DNA from: an uncultured Faecalicatena sp. | GTDB taxonomy: Bacteria; Bacillota; Clostridia; Lachnospirales; Lachnospiraceae | Length of the DNA: 64,000 nt | NCBI GenBank assembly: GCA_948468385.1 | Contig: CAOKHZ010000005.1 | Coordinates: 106,349-170,348 of the forward strand | Direction: 5' to 3' | Shown here: positions 55,840 to 63,896 of the stretch, piece by piece | Position numbering within the stretch: the stretch's first letter is position 1 | Layout of the letters: each line of letters begins with the position of its first letter | Notes under the pieces: generated by a model | Database searches by the model: none | What the model saw: the letters and a program-made list of their open reading frames with translations, nothing else | Told to the model about the DNA's origin: nothing | Made by a program: the position numbers and the translations under genes

Positions 55840-56937
55840 TTAAGATTGGTTTTCAATTTCTTTTAAATGTTTCATGACATCGTTAGAATCGTAAGTTGGC
55901 GAAAATTTTTGGGCAATATCGCAAATTCGTCGGACGATATTTTCATCTTCCTCCAACATGTCGGCAATCTCTGATACACTACAATTTTTAGCCAGTTTTT
56001 TGCAGATTTGGAAAGTTAATTTTTCAATCTGGCCCTCTGCCCGACCTTCTGCCCGACCTTCTGCCCGGCCTTCTGCCCGACCTTCCGCCCGGCCCTTTAC
56101 CCGACCTTCTGCCCGGCCCTCTGCTAATCCGGCTTCTCTGGCGAGCTTACGTTCTTCTCGGATATGTTTTTCCTCGTCATATTCATATAAACATCGACAC
56201 ATGTTTTTGGCCTCCACACTGTGTTTTTTCAAGAAATCAGTCAGGACATCTTGTTTTATGCATTCAGCAATTGCTTGTTCTGCCGCCTCCTCCGGGGACA
56301 TTATTTTTGAATAATCACGCATTTTCTGGACGAAAAATGCATAATCGTGCAGAACCTTGCAGGCTTTCATCAGCTTTTTGTTTTTACCTAAGTTGATATT
56401 TACAACTGTTACAACTAACTCCAATTCGGGATTATCTGTTGGCTGCTGAAACGCTTCGGATAAACGTAGCTCCCACTTTTCGGGTTTTTCTTCTATCCCA
56501 TTGTAAAATACCATGAACTTTGGTGTGGGTATTTTCTTTAGTGCGGAACTGTATAAATCCTCATTCCTCGTGATATCTTGCAGGATTTCTGAAACATAAA
56601 ATAAGTCTCGAAGCGGCATGTTTGGATTGACGCTTGATTGGTGCTCGTACAAATATAATTGCAGGTTGATCACAAAAGAAATGTCATTTTTATAGCCCAG
56701 ATAAATGGCATGTTCGAGCGTGTTCATTACCAAGTCATTCGTATTTGTGTAATCTGTTCCGTTGATTGCATTGTAAAGGCTTAAAAGATTTTCTTTTTCT
56801 TTGAAAATCATTCGGAACATGGTGTCCTTATAAGTCCTTGTTACTTTAGGAATGCTTTTCTTTTGAGAGATGTTCCTTGTCTTAACTTTTTTTGTTTTGC
56901 TTACCTTTCTATTGGCTTTTTGTTTTACTGTTCTCAT
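55840..56937 (-). CDS. Rpn/PD-(D/E)XK nuclease family protein (recombination-promoting nuclease-like) with AEGR repeats
   Basis: 365 residues. Lys/Arg-rich N-terminus, then KDTMFRMIFKEKENLLSLYNAINGTDYT, DISFVINLQLYLYEHQSSVNPNMPLRDLFYVSEIL and PTPKFMVFYNGIEEKPE, the conserved core of the transposase/Rpn nuclease group. Near residues 270-302 eight tandem AEGR-type units are followed by a Lys/Ile-rich C-terminal helix pair resembling a small DNA-binding domain (CSVSEIADMLEEDENIVRRI). Its stop is 20 bases before tyrA; whether it drives tyrA-aroA expression is unclear. Function in this cell unknown. Confidence 0.85.
   Translation of the reverse strand: MRTVKQKANRKVSKTKKVKTRNISQKKSIPKVTRTYKDTMFRMIFKEKENLLSLYNAINGTDYTNTNDLVMNTLEHAIYLGYKNDISFVINLQLYLYEHQSSVNPNMPLRDLFYVSEILQDITRNEDLYSSALKKIPTPKFMVFYNGIEEKPEKWELRLSEAFQQPTDNPELELVVTVVNINLGKNKKLMKACKVLHDYAFFVQKMRDYSKIMSPEEAAEQAIAECIKQDVLTDFLKKHSVEAKNMCRCLYEYDEEKHIREERKLAREAGLAEGRAEGRVKGRAEGRAEGRAEGRAEGRAEGQIEKLTFQICKKLAKNCSVSEIADMLEEDENIVRRICDIAQKFSPTYDSNDVMKHLKEIENQS
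56031..56126 (-). repeat. 12-bp tandem repeat, eight units, in the Rpn gene
   Basis: Consecutive 12-base units coding A/V-E/K-G-R on the minus strand with few changes. The 12-base period keeps frame, so copy number can change without frameshift. Confidence 0.93.
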
Positions 56938-59623: not shown

Positions 59624-59652
59624 TTGACAGTGGCATATGTTGGATGTATAAC
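59624..59652 (+). promoter_or_regulatory. Promoter of the response regulator, operator over -10
   Basis: TTGACA, 17 bases, TATAAC. The dyad GGATGT-ATA-ACATCC (59642-59656) covers the -10, a position suited to repression or autoregulation. Confidence 0.7.
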
Positions 59653-59923
59653 ATCCGATGACAATATGGAAATGCCAGTGATAATGAAAATCGCAATGGA
59701 ATTAGATTTAAAGTGACCTGCACAATTAGAATATGGTCTGAGAGATAGTTTTCTGTCCTAATTGCCAAGTCGTGCGTGTGGTTTTACTCTATAATTGCGT
59801 ATAAAAGCAGTTGTTTGGAATGGAAAACTATGGTAACATTATATACGATTTGCGCGGCGGTCTGCCCATCATTTATGGGGGCAAAGTGTTTTTATACGGT
59901 TCCTGAAAATGGTGGGAGCATAC

Positions 59924-60847
59924 ATGAGAGAAGGTGCGGTTTTGGATACGAAGAGAGTTTTGATCGTGGAGGATGAGGCGGAAGTTAGGAACGAGTATAA
60001 AAGGCTGTTGAAGGAGAAACATCCTGGATTGTGCCTGGCGGGGGAGACGGAAAACCGAAGGGATGCTCTTTCATTGTTGCAGGCTACCTCCGTGGACGTG
60101 GTCATCCTTGATTTGGAACTGCAGGGAGATAATGGAATTGTATTATTGAAAGAATTGCAAAAATTACCGATAGAGAAGCCGCTTATCATAGTGGTTACCA
60201 AGGTCGTTTCCGCTTCGTTGATGGAAGTGATTCGCAATATGGGAGTGGATACGTTTTGTGCGAAAAGTGGTAAAGGGTTTACGTTTGACGAACCGCTTAC
60301 CCTTGCCGAAATAGCGGGAGGGTTTCGAAAAGAGAAAAGCGGTGCAGGCAAGAAGCGTTTGATGGACGAGGCATTACGGGCGGACGAGGCGAGACTTCAA
60401 AATGGGACATGTCGAGCAGGCGGCACGAGTTTGCCGAATGGAACATTTCCATCCGATGAAACGAGCTTGCCGCATGAAACGTTTACGTCAGACGAGGCGG
60501 ACTCGTGGAAAGCGGAACTTCGAAAGGAAATTGAAGCCGCATTGAAAGCTATTGGATTTCCGTCGGAAAAACGTGGGACGAACCAATGTGTGGAAGCAAT
60601 TCTTTTCATGGTGTTGTCAGGGAAGAAATTCATTAGCCTTTCGAAGGAGGTGTACCCGCATGTCGCGCGTGTATGCGATACCGGGGAAAAGAGCGTGGAG
60701 AAAAATATTCGGCGTGTCATCGAGGAAGTCTGGTCGCAAGACGACATGGCAAGATTTCGCCGGATGTACTCATATAGTCGATTCGGCATTCAGAAAAAGC
60801 CGACAAATGCGGAGTTCCTCACTCATATGGCTCAAAGGTGGATGTGA
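59924..60847 (+). CDS. Response regulator with Spo0A-type C-terminal domain
   Basis: 307 residues. Receiver at ~9-125: acidic pocket in VLIVEDEAEVRNEY, phospho-Asp in VVILDLELQGDNG, Thr in IIVVTKVV and Lys in FCAKSGKG. A ~70-residue linker has near-repeats (TSLPNGTFPSDE / TSLPHETFTSDE). The last ~110 residues match the Spo0A DNA-binding fold, with KEVYPHVARVCDTGEKSVEKNIRRVIEEVWSQ at the recognition region. It is a paralogue, not Spo0A: the linker is long and the Spo0A core is divergent. ATG has GGTGGGAG upstream. A peptide gene and sensor kinase follow. Confidence 0.85.
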   Translation: MREGAVLDTKRVLIVEDEAEVRNEYKRLLKEKHPGLCLAGETENRRDALSLLQATSVDVVILDLELQGDNGIVLLKELQKLPIEKPLIIVVTKVVSASLMEVIRNMGVDTFCAKSGKGFTFDEPLTLAEIAGGFRKEKSGAGKKRLMDEALRADEARLQNGTCRAGGTSLPNGTFPSDETSLPHETFTSDEADSWKAELRKEIEAALKAIGFPSEKRGTNQCVEAILFMVLSGKKFISLSKEVYPHVARVCDTGEKSVEKNIRRVIEEVWSQDDMARFRRMYSYSRFGIQKKPTNAEFLTHMAQRWM

Positions 60848-60914
60848 GAAGTTTGCTGTGGTGAGGATGAACTTAAGATAAATGGCGAAATAAATCGAAT
60901 TCGTCCGACTGGCT

Positions 60915-60944
60915 TTGACAGAATTTTTCCCTCCAAAATGATAT
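60915..60944 (+). promoter_or_regulatory. Possible promoter of the peptide-kinase pair
   Basis: TTGACA with an 18-base spacer to a weak TGATAT. It would start transcription close to 60950, after the CCCTCC that can mask the peptide ribosome site. Confidence 0.45.
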
Positions 60945-60972
60945 GTTGTGTGAAAACATTTCAAAGGAGGGA
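60928..60972 (+). promoter_or_regulatory. SD-masking pair upstream of the peptide gene
   Basis: TCCCTCC (60928-60934) is perfectly complementary to GGAGGGA (60966-60972), the ribosome site of the small peptide. The stem would form only on transcripts that read through from the response regulator. Confidence 0.45.
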
Positions 60973-60977
60973 TTCGG

Positions 60978-61022
60978 ATGACCTTTATAGAATGGCTTAA
61001 GTATTTATTTAAACGTGGGTGA
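60978..61022 (+). CDS. 14-residue amphipathic peptide, candidate signal
   Basis: ATG to TGA, product MTFIEWLKYLFKRG. The ribosome site AAAGGAGGG is one of the best in the window, with spacing of seven to eight bases. The peptide is amphipathic: aromatic and aliphatic residues (F3, I4, W6, L7, Y9, L10, F11) alternate with charges (E5, K8, K12, R13), net positive. No signal peptide, no Cys, no AgrB-like processing gene nearby. It sits between a response regulator and a sensor kinase. Could be a secreted or membrane-active signal, or a short leader whose translation affects the kinase gene. Too short to judge by homology. Confidence 0.55.
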   Translation: MTFIEWLKYLFKRG

Positions 61023-61078
61023 ATTGCAAAAATCGGGCGGCAAGAGAGTTTGTCGCTCGTTTTTTAGGAGGAGAACAG

Positions 61079-62380
61079 ATGATAATCAGTATAGCAATAG
61101 AATGGATGCGAATGATGGTGGTTTTGGCGAGCTTCTTTGCATTGGCAGGGGAGCGGTTTTTAGCGCAGGAGCGGAAACAACGGGTTGTAGTAATAATTTT
61201 GATAATGATTTGTGTTTTATTGAGAATCATTTCTTTGCCAGGGGTAATTGTACGTTTTGTATGTGAGATGGAGTTATTGGTTTTTTACATATTGATTTGC
61301 TATAAAAAGGAACGATGGCTCCATCTGATGTATATGTCCATGGCATATGTGGCACTGGATGTGGCATATGTTCCGATTGCTTGGGTAACTTATCGTTTGA
61401 CTAATATTTTTCCAGAGAGAAGCTATCCGATTATAGGTGATACAATAATACTGGTATTATATACCGGATTGATTTTTATATATCCCAAAGTGATGAGATG
61501 GTTGCGACATTGGATTGGAAATATCACTTCCACGTTTTTTAGTGTAGGAGTTACGATTATTTTAACCTTTGTAAAGGGTGCTACTTTGGCGTTTATCAGG
61601 AATGATGACAATAGCATCGAAACCAGTCTTATTTATTTGTTCTTGGCCGTATTTGCATTTGCCATTTGTTGCTTTTGGATAGCTGATAAGTTAAAAGAAA
61701 ATGACAAAATCCAAGATTTCATAAGGTACGAACACCGCACACGCGAGCTGGTTCCCGCGATGGGAAGGGCGGTAAAAAAGTTGGACATTTTGCCCAAGGA
61801 ATCGGAGGAAGCGGATAAAATCAGGAAGGAAGTGCAGGAAATCTGTGACACGGACGAAAAACTGACGCAGGAGGAAGTGCTTGCCGCCAAAATGTTTGCA
61901 ACAACGGGATATGCCGTGTTGGACGGCATGCTGGAGCGATATCTGCAGGAGGCAATGCAACAAGGGATAGATTTGAAGATTATCGTACGAACTTCGTTGA
62001 AACACATTGTAGAAGAACAGAAAATAGAAATTGGCTTGGTTTTACAGATGATTGGAGACATTTACCGCAATGCTTATAAGGTGGTCTTGGAGCGAGGTGG
62101 CGAGGGCAGAATCGTGCTTTGCATGGGCTATAACCAAAATGAATATGAGGTGTCCGTGCTTGACAATGGGCGGCCGTTTTCGGCGTACGTGCTGAAACGT
62201 TTGGGGAAACGGGGCGTGACGACGGGAGGTACGGGACACGGCTTGGCCGACGTGTTTGAGATTGCGGATAAGTATCAAATAAGCTTTGTATTGAAACAAG
62301 ACTTTCCGTCAGATCACATGTTCTCAAAATCGGTAAGTTTGGTATTTGACGGGAAGGGAAGACGGGAAATAGATAGATGA
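61079..62380 (+). CDS. GHKL-type sensor histidine kinase (AgrC-like)
   Basis: 433 residues. About six membrane helices in the first ~200 residues (MIISIAIEWMRMMVVLASF; VVVIILIMICVLLRIISL; LLVFYILICY; ALDVAYVPIAWV; TIILVLYTGLIFIY; LIYLFLAVFAFAICCFW), then IRYEHRTRELVPAMGRAVKKL with a candidate phospho-His. The ATPase part has N-box IGDIYRNAYKVV, G1 SVLDNGRPFSAYV and G2 TTGGTGHGLADVF. Such GHKL kinases read peptide signals at the membrane. ATG has AGGAGGAG upstream; an in-frame GTG overlaps the peptide stop codon. The adjoining regulator is its likely partner. Confidence 0.88.
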   Translation: MIISIAIEWMRMMVVLASFFALAGERFLAQERKQRVVVIILIMICVLLRIISLPGVIVRFVCEMELLVFYILICYKKERWLHLMYMSMAYVALDVAYVPIAWVTYRLTNIFPERSYPIIGDTIILVLYTGLIFIYPKVMRWLRHWIGNITSTFFSVGVTIILTFVKGATLAFIRNDDNSIETSLIYLFLAVFAFAICCFWIADKLKENDKIQDFIRYEHRTRELVPAMGRAVKKLDILPKESEEADKIRKEVQEICDTDEKLTQEEVLAAKMFATTGYAVLDGMLERYLQEAMQQGIDLKIIVRTSLKHIVEEQKIEIGLVLQMIGDIYRNAYKVVLERGGEGRIVLCMGYNQNEYEVSVLDNGRPFSAYVLKRLGKRGVTTGGTGHGLADVFEIADKYQISFVLKQDFPSDHMFSKSVSLVFDGKGRREIDR

Positions 62381-62807
62381 AGATAAATGCGGAATGCCCT
62401 CGCCTTTATAGGCGGCGAGTAACTTATAGTAACAAGATTCAATCCCCGTCTGGGATGCCTCCGGCAGATGGTGGGTGCGCGAAGTTGTTGTTGCCAGCAA
62501 GCCAATCCGCGCACCGCCGTAAGAATGCCGAGGCGTTCTTGAATAAAGATGTCGAAAGAAAAATGAAAAAAGTCGAAAGAAAAAAGCATAAAGTCGAAAA
62601 AGGTCGAAAAAGGTCGAAAAAGGTCGAGCGAAAACGCGCAGAATCCAAAAAAATCCTTGTAAAACATGGACTTTTCGAGGTTGAATGAAGGTCGAAAAAA
62701 GTCGAAAAAAGTTGAATGAAATTCCCTTGTTTCCTTGTTATAATATAAGAAGATATGAATGGAATAAATTTCTATTGCGTATTACATTTACAAAGGATAT
62801 AATTTGC
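62381..62807. other. Repeat-rich region between sensor kinase and HerA fragment
   Basis: A frame with Lys/Arg/Glu-rich coding (VERK-type) spans part of it but is set by the 10-bp repeat and is not credible. The first ~150 bases hold a hairpin-like CTCGCC-TTTATA-GGCGGCGAG; the rest is the GTCGAA array. No ribosome site was seen. Confidence 0.5.
62552..62716 (+). repeat. Phased array of GTCGAA motifs (Spo0A-box-like)
   Basis: GTCGAA begins at 62552, 62573, 62593, 62603, 62613, then GTCGAG at 62623; a second block has GTTGAA 62680, GTCGAA 62691 and 62701, GTTGAA 62711. Spacing is about 10, 20 or 21 bases, one orientation. The first copy is an exact TGTCGAA, the Spo0A box core. A 10-base period is not coding. 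Confidence 0.85.
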
Positions 62808-63896
62808 AACGAAAAAGGCGGCTTGTACATTCCCTTGTGGTTTTTCAATTATGAGGAAATTCATTCCTTGTTTGTGGAATCGTCGGAGGGAACGTCAACA
62901 AACCAGAGGGCGGCAGTCATCCATTACATTTTGCAGCACAAGAAGCAATACATCAAAGACAAGATGAATTCTGTATCGGAAGAAATCGTTACCGCGGACA
63001 CGCCGGCGCCATTTTCCGCAAAAGGGTTGGTGGAGTACTTGGAAGCACAGAATATTCTGGAAGTCAAGACGGGAGAGATATACAAATCAACCGAGAAAAA
63101 AGGGCAAGTTAAGACAAAGCAGGGGCAATATTATAACAAGTTGACAAACCTGATTACCCGATTGAAGACAAAAATGGATGACAAGAAATATGGTTTTGTC
63201 TTTAATGAAAATGATACGGGCGATGTCGCTTACCTCAACCAATTTGCCACCAGAATCATGAGGAATGGAGGGCACAAGATAAAGGTCATTGATTTGTCCG
63301 AAGTTCCGTCGGACATGCTGGCAATCGTCATCGGCATCGTGACACGACTGGTATACGACATCCAGTTCTGGATGAATCCGACAAAAGACGAGGTGAGGCA
63401 TCCGCTGGTTCTGGTGTGTGATGAGGCCCACATTTACATGGCAAACGACATGTCAAAAATGAAGGCGGTAAAAAGAAAATCGCTGGAGATTTTTGAAAGG
63501 ATTGCCAAAAAGGGCAGGAAGTACGGGCTTGGCCTTCTGATTGTGTCGCAACGGCCGGCCGAACTAAACACCACCATTTTGTCCCAATGTAATAATATCA
63601 TCAGCCTCAAAATGACGAACAACAAGGATAAATCCGCCGTGGCGGCGATGTTGACGGACTCGCTGGTCGGCATTGTGGAGATGTTGCCAAACCTGGACGT
63701 GGGAGAGTGCGTGGCGGTGGGCGACGCAATCATGTTGCCATCAAAGATCATTCTGGATGAGCCGGAGGAAAGGCCAAAAAGCGCGACCATCGACTTCTGG
63801 GATAGGTGGTATGATGGGGAACGGACGGTGTTCGACGTGGAGGAGGCAATTCTGAATTTGATACGACAGATGAGGGGGAGAGGTGAAAAATTATAA
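62808..63896 (+). pseudogene. Truncated HerA-type ATPase, N-terminal half missing
   Basis: From about EKGGLYIPLWFFNYEEIHSLF onward the reading matches the C-terminal two-thirds of HerA-like bacterial ATPases: LKTKQGQYYNKLTNLITRLKTKMD-type segment, KVIDLSEVPSDMLAIVIGIVTRLVYDIQFWMNP, Walker B LVLVCDEAHIYMAND, GLGLLIVSQRPAELNTTILSQCNNIISLKMTN and LPNLDVGECVAVGDAIMLPSKI. Walker A and the barrel domain are absent: upstream of 62808 the frame continues into repeat DNA without homology or ribosome site. Remaining reading is uninterrupted for ~362 codons. Likely a decaying remnant. Confidence 0.7.

Follow-up and report, generated by a model that had tools for sequence, protein, structure and literature searches.

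We examined a stretch of 64,000 nucleotides (the window, at its full length) from an uncultured Faecalicatena sp. of the Lachnospiraceae (assembly GCA_948468385.1, contig CAOKHZ010000005.1, positions 106,349 to 170,348), in which three genes form what may be a compact peptide signalling module: a response regulator, a 14-codon open reading frame (ORF) and a GHKL-type histidine kinase. An initial annotation of the sequence had described this order, with a ribosome site ahead of the short frame, and we confirm it, since every part it named is found. All features described for the locus lie on the forward strand. The regulator gene (59909..60847) encodes a receiver and a Spo0A-type DNA-binding domain by Pfam match, and its likelier start, read by eye, is the ATG at 59924 behind GGTGGGAG. 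The peptide gene (60978..61022), read directly from the DNA, encodes MTFIEWLKYLFKRG and is preceded by the Shine–Dalgarno (SD) sequence AAAGGAGGGA at 60963–60972. The kinase gene (61079..62380, ATG at 61079), assigned by profile match and relatives, encodes a membrane protein of 433 amino acids. The span first given for the module, 59624..62380, thus ends correctly with the kinase but starts about 285 bases too early.

Several DNA elements accompany these genes. Just 5′ of the peptide gene, an alignment of five relatives from the window's clade reveals three box-like elements, TCGAA, CCGAC and TTGAC, at exact 10-bp steps (60895..60919), with an invariant G at 60897, 60907 and 60917. The last box overlaps a candidate promoter (60915..60947) made of TTGACA (60915–60920) and TATGTT (60942–60947) at a spacing of 21 bases; TATGTT is kept in the five relatives, and a promoter scan prefers AATGAT, which ends at 60942, as the partner of TTGACA. 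By folding, an inverted repeat, TCCCTCC (60928–60934) with GGAGGGA (60966–60972), takes in the SD sequence (60928..60972), and folding together with a terminator scan places an intrinsic terminator between the peptide and kinase genes (61034..61065, hairpin 61034–61059 plus a T-run). Behind the kinase, a repeat scan finds a cluster of GTCGAAA repeats (62551..62707), whose core has a 10-bp period and resembles the 0A-box consensus. The terminator, the SD inverted repeat and the GTCGAAA cluster were absent from the initial list of features.

Judged on the window alone, the evidence for the short ORF is weak, because such sites are about as common as shuffled sequence predicts. Ribosome-site-like motifs before an ATG number 14 against 13.4 expected, counted with a pattern that mismatches this peptide's own spacing, and promoter-like sites nearby (5 against 6.5 expected) and terminator-like sites (5 against 3.1) are likewise ordinary. 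It is comparison between loci, not the sequence of the window, that makes the 14-codon ORF convincing.

The three-gene order, which the initial annotation had proposed to look for in relatives, is found again both in Lachnospiraceae and elsewhere among the Clostridia. Matches to the kinase occur in 10 of 61 related genomes, the window's own genome included; the nearest relatives have MTFWEWLRYLLRRG, MSFWEWLKYFLGNI, MSFWEWILGILQRGS and MSWEGFWQWFLYAIKR at the same position, and a second module in the same genome, on contig C35, carries the peptide MSFWEWMKYFLGHL. Across 84,980 species genomes the DNA pattern GGAGN{5,12}ATGASYTTYTGGGARTGG matched 36 stretches, of which 15 are the starts or insides of other genes and 21 are free-standing ORFs of 12–15 codons. 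Regulator and kinase stand beside the ORF in 17 of these 21 (with the kinase of L054 in two frames and the ORF of L027 inverted); of the remaining four, L030 and L036 run off the end of the stretch, and L041 and L053 have the kinase, with an FtsH gene where the regulator is expected. Being biased to its own motif, this search shows linkage and not the range of peptides. The peptide pattern gave four matches in 299 genomes of the family, one being the module of the own-genome paralogue and three lying inside genes.

A wider range of peptides came from a kinase profile (A1), which matches in 15 of 250 genomes of the window's own family, 42 of 145 of another family and 11 of 391 of the class; in 398 genomes drawn from the phylum it matched the own genome only, at most four candidates having been scored in the genomes listed. 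In 38 of the 53 loci fetched with the kinase, the gap between regulator and kinase holds an ORF of 10–20 codons with a ribosome site and at least two tryptophan (Trp) codons, compared with a mean of 0.15 and a maximum of 2 of 53 in 100 dinucleotide shuffles. With at least one Trp the count is 45 of 53, against 1.56 (maximum 6) in shuffled gaps. The window peptide, with one Trp, no Cys and no Ser, falls outside the 38. Only six of these 38 peptides begin MSFWEW, so that the remaining 32 could not stem from the DNA pattern; examples from the kinase-fetched loci are MANWWDWWWRTVAGGH, MWDFWEALRWLTGIF, MEEWFDALWQWVSKWL and MWKAILEYLVELVAY. On the strength of the shuffles and the genome search we reject the notion of a chance ORF.

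Candidate vehicles for the module were also considered and rejected. The window kinase had no match among plasmids, and the six matches of the peptide pattern in viral contigs begin ORFs of at least 25 residues. Eight records labelled as phage contain a similar regulator; the three inspected (MT835504.1, MT835781.1 and MT835718.1), which are unverified scaffolds, look like ordinary spo0A loci and are probably contamination. None of these three loci has a matching kinase or such a peptide gene alongside, and the lone Trp-bearing short ORF found at them lies inside the regulator gene.

The properties of the peptides were compared in a set of 59. It comprises 43 from the 53 kinase-fetched loci, after removal of those without an ORF and of L075, L077 (the window locus), L099 and L113, together with 16 from first-round or pattern loci; L113 would be a twelfth locus with an inverted peptide gene. 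These peptides are 12–19 residues long and mostly Trp-rich, with Trp making up 18% of residues and Cys 0.5%. Their sequences vary widely, and what they share is a helical pattern: the hydrophobic moment is maximal at 95–105 degrees, the pitch of an alpha-helix (z = 12.9 at 100 degrees), and the signal persists when the set is reduced to 25 non-redundant peptides (z = 9.2) or to the 11 inverted ones (z = 4.9), with none of 500 shuffles reaching either value. By sequence, then, the peptides are amphipathic helices. An acidic residue stands near the N-terminus in 55 of the 59, and by net charge 23 peptides are neutral, 23 negative and 13 positive.

Codon differences between loci point the same way. 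Between 16 kinase-matched pairs, 30 of the 117 differing codons are synonymous and 87 nonsynonymous, a synonymous fraction of 0.256 against 0.148 in simulations, only 1 of 2000 of which was as high, although the amino-acid alignment used tilts the counts somewhat toward synonymous differences. The synonymous excess that the initial annotation suggested seeking is therefore present, if modest. Stronger support comes from the Trp content relative to shuffles and from the helical amphipathicity.

The peptide gene also behaves as a unit of its own. Of the 48 peptide genes on the same strand as the kinase, 42 are followed by a terminator at or below −10 kcal/mol, against 2.1% of shuffles, as are 5 of the 11 inverted ones, against 10% of shuffles. 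The 11 loci (of 59) whose peptide gene is on the opposite strand group together as a single clade in a tree of the kinases (support 100/96), and the pattern-found L027 is inverted as well. In L015 two peptide genes stand in tandem, and in several loci a promoter-like TTGATT-17-TATAAT, read by eye, precedes the kinase. Upstream sequence able to pair with the SD is strong in 24 of the 59 loci, where at most 2 of 40 shuffles are as strong; the window, at 5 of 40, is not among them. That such pairing could keep the peptide untranslated on longer, read-through transcripts is only a suggestion.

The proteins on either side fit a kinase–regulator pair. The window regulator scores 58.7 bits with Response_reg and 78.5 bits with Spo0A_C, both above the Pfam cut-offs, and its Spo0A_C score, like a second one of 62.6 bits, exceeds the cut-off of 25, which places it in the Spo0A effector-domain superfamily. 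The solved structures closest to the profile of the regulator family are those of Spo0A, 1fc3 and 1lq1. Against TIGR02875, the Spo0A equivalog model, it reaches 86.2 bits with a cut-off of 200, so that it does not qualify as the sporulation master regulator. The kinase matches HATPase_c at 24.4 bits, slightly below the Pfam cut-off of 26.4, and has about six hydrophobic segments (four to eight in relatives). One His and several G- and D-box residues are invariant in 16 kinase relatives, and the invariant His, within YEHRTREL in the window kinase, is likely the phospho-acceptor. The N-box Asn of the kinase (RNAY in the window) is replaced by Asp in several of the Clostridia kinases of A1, including L024, L049 and L050 (GDHIRDAI in L049).

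Phased repeats upstream of the peptide genes suggest where such a regulator might act. In 56 upstream regions, reduced by similarity from 62, self-similarity peaks at a lag of 10 bp (best-local z = 12.9) and again at 20 bp (z = 12.6), while lags of 9 and 11 give z = 0.5. Fifty control regions upstream of other genes, taken from the pattern-found loci and 26 of them mostly intergenic, lack the signal (p = 2e-5). Spo0A binds TGTCGAA boxes, and at spoIIG its activating sites lie over a promoter with wide spacing; repeats of one helical turn fit a Spo0A-type regulator, and the 21-base spacing of the candidate peptide promoter recalls the spoIIG arrangement.

Denser arrays lie elsewhere at some modules. 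The window has 12 GTCGAAA sites, a total not above the 13.9 expected, yet seven of them cluster within 62551–62707, the sole lag-10 array of such strength in the 64 kb. In the own genome (94% complete) an exact triple TCGAA array with 10-bp steps was found in only two places, both behind module kinases. The array of the paralogue precedes an RHS-repeat gene that is truncated where the contig ends and encodes over 2,300 residues, with 33 RHS repeats, and on contig C28 of genome G008 a homologous RHS-repeat gene follows an array. At both of these modules a looser array also stands ahead of the regulator gene; arrays in the two positions, before the regulator gene and before an RHS-repeat gene, are seen in L125 and L126. 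In G160 and G247 a dense array is found at the module only. Where a target gene is expected behind the window array, there is instead part of a gene for a HerA-like helicase (62685..63896; Pfam DUF87, NCBIfam HerA_antiphage_2 positions 310–562 of 576), of which only the C-terminal half matches; the target may therefore have been lost in the window, and the fragment is perhaps what recombination left of a defence locus. The idea in the initial annotation that the circuit ends on Spo0A-box-like DNA fits both the phased repeats and the arrays, to which the regulator would be expected to bind.

Other neighbours are less regular. Nine loci (L024, L035, L042, L043, L049, L050, L051, L054 and L059) have, ahead of the regulator gene, a divergently oriented gene of XRE type that encodes about 105 residues. 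Contig CALXVD010000004.1 carries two modules (L024 and L054) with different peptides, one of them followed by a putative nonribosomal peptide synthetase (NRPS) condensation-like protein. An EF-G gene precedes the window module, and at L046 (genome G001, contig C321) a second kinase, with no peptide ORF preceding it, lies upstream of the module, directly after what by eye is an EF-G-like gene. At L016 (genome G008, contig C16, 1463–1608) there is an apparent decayed module, in which a few codons resembling the beginning of a regulator gene continue into the final codons of a kinase gene; repeats of GTCGAA type stand on both sides. Farther away in the window, a minus-strand ORF (55840–56937) contains a GRAEGRAEGR repeat run in its C-terminal third.

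The initial interpretation as a peptide signalling module is supported by these comparisons, and we favour, with moderate confidence, the explanation that the ORF is a real peptide gene, that it completes a compact three-part signalling module, and that its product serves as an autoinducer between cells. The linkage of the three genes, the shuffle controls, the amphipathicity, the peptide gene's own terminator, the phased repeats, the dense arrays at modules, the Spo0A effector domain and the weak similarity of the L049 kinase to AgrC all count for it. The 14-codon ORF, coding by comparison, would be translated into a leaderless amphipathic helix that settles in the membrane surface, where the neighbouring polytopic GHKL kinase would sense it. 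Gene pairing and conserved residues suggest that the kinase then phosphorylates the Spo0A-type regulator, which would bind the tandem boxes one helical turn apart upstream of the peptide gene and so feed back, in whichever direction, on the signal. In the window's clade the regulator may also act on the array behind the kinase, which in the paralogue precedes the giant RHS-repeat gene.

Several observations weigh against this explanation. The initial annotation had held that related loci without the short frame would tell against a signalling peptide, and the peptide ORF is indeed not universal among kinase relatives: no short frame is found at L003 (a second kinase in G001) or at L005, even if it is present in the 38 of 53 kinase-fetched loci noted above. 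No Trp-bearing ORF was found in eight of the 53 (L069, L070, L074, L075, L104, L110, L117 and L118), among which L069 and L104 do have peptides that the gap borders missed, L070 and L074 lie at contig ends, and L110 has an ORF without Trp. The 53 loci are moreover not wholly independent of the peptide, because most of the 16 rows of profile A1 come from loci found with the peptide pattern; some of the 53 (e.g. L066, L078, L079 and L080) coincide with pattern matches. On the lag-10 measure the region before the window's peptide gene scores low (16 of 30), and G160 and G247 give no support for a wider regulon. Around the 21 pattern loci no gene family of at least 90 residues besides kinase, regulator and the XRE gene is common to more than three loci, so that, with no shared exporter, protease or other gene, release of the peptide is left unaccounted for. 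Co-evolution of sensor and peptide is not supported either, since peptide similarity tracks the catalytic half of the kinase (partial correlation 0.37) and not its membrane half (−0.14).

The lack of a common exporter or processing enzyme speaks for the main alternative to an autoinducer, namely that the peptide acts only inside the producing cell, as a microprotein of the membrane that tunes the neighbouring kinase, whether as a brake or an activator. An amphipathic helix without a signal peptide could sit on the inner face of the membrane, and in either case phased repeats at the peptide gene would let a feedback loop close. That the peptide gene has its own terminator and a strong ribosome site, and that its sequence varies widely, as those of pheromones often do, might seem to speak for a secreted signal, but both are compatible with either reading, and we regard confinement to the producing cell as unlikely, though credible. 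More doubtful still is a reading in which kinase and regulator induce the peptide as their end product, a weapon or surfactant that acts on membranes. Membrane-active peptides typically form amphipathic helices rich in Trp, and the restriction of the array to the module in G160 and G247 would suit such a role; however, 46 of the 59 peptides have a net charge of zero or below, unlike most antimicrobial peptides, and no immunity or export gene is common to the loci. Finally, the alternative named in the initial annotation, that the ORF is only a translated leader governing terminator read-through into the kinase gene, draws on the position of the window terminator between ORF and kinase and on the Trp-richness of most peptides, but it is very improbable, as a leader or attenuator would lie upstream on the same strand in all members, and it is disfavoured by the opposite-strand loci, the tandem copies in L015, the peptide gene's own terminator, the promoter-like sequence ahead of the kinase, and the amphipathicity and N-terminal acidic residue kept beyond the Trp codons.

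The loci may represent a large undescribed class of autoinducers in gut Clostridia, made of genetically minimal, leaderless, unprocessed amphipathic helices of 12–19 residues, each detected at the membrane by its own GHKL kinase and connected by a Spo0A-like regulator to 10-bp-phased arrays, which in some species would include arrays before giant RHS-repeat genes; we hold this broader proposal to be evenly balanced. Gene callers usually overlook genes of this length, and abundant gut bacteria that have received little study may therefore conceal a class of signals. Three small genes, with no maturation enzyme alongside, seem to be all that the module requires, so that testing it in a laboratory host should be simple, and it places a Spo0A-type DNA-binding domain in a dedicated kinase–regulator pair. 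Among the literature matches listed, in a collection without bioRxiv and most subscription journals, none describes these peptides or this gene set, and the strings MSFWEW, FWEWL and SFWEWL do not occur in the literature text searched.

Like peptide–kinase–regulator systems in general, the module has a dedicated peptide gene linked to a kinase–regulator pair, and it is instructive to compare it with particular members. It resembles Agr in the adjacency of signal and kinase genes, and its polytopic GHKL kinase may be AgrC-like: the L049 kinase aligns weakly with the AgrC model over most of its length (E = 7e-4, 18.8 bits; cut-off 500), and a profile search gave no match for the window kinase. 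Membership in Agr fails on three defining features. First, unlike in Agr, no AgrB lies next to the signal gene at module loci. The initial annotation was right that AgrB and AgrD are missing at the window locus, but this does not extend to the genome, where an AgrB profile finds one copy on contig C22 (the modules being on C5 and C35); of 47 other module-bearing genomes, 36 have AgrB, on other contigs or, in G742, about 52 kb away, and 11, several of them nearly complete, have none. Being distant or absent in module-bearing genomes, AgrB is not part of the module, and it is possible that it helps from elsewhere in the genome where present. Second, the Cys/Ser lactone core, leader and tail of AgrD-like precursors are not seen in peptides so short and so poor in Cys. 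Third, where AgrA has a LytTR domain, the module regulator has Spo0A_C.

Other systems share single traits. Phenol-soluble modulins are likewise leaderless short amphipathic helices, and no dedicated kinase is known to be paired with them, whereas in most module loci the peptide gene lies between one regulator gene and one kinase gene. Spo0A and its 0A-box promoters are similar in the effector domain, as seen in the match to 1fc3 and 1lq1, and in boxes, some of which resemble TGTCGAA and recur at 10-bp steps; they differ in that the regulator and kinase genes of the module are paired, whereas the three spo0A-like loci have no matching kinase. Plantaricin A is cut from a double-glycine precursor. 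Compared with that pheromone and its kinase PlnB, which serve in bacteriocin induction, the peptides here are mostly neutral or acidic and without a leader, the regulator is of Spo0A type, and there is no dedicated exporter nearby. What the two have in common is an amphiphilic helical peptide beside a kinase system, plantaricin A being described as a peptide pheromone of charge +5 that acts via the membrane on a histidine kinase (PMC6543913). By this analogy, among known systems the module would work most like plantaricin A.

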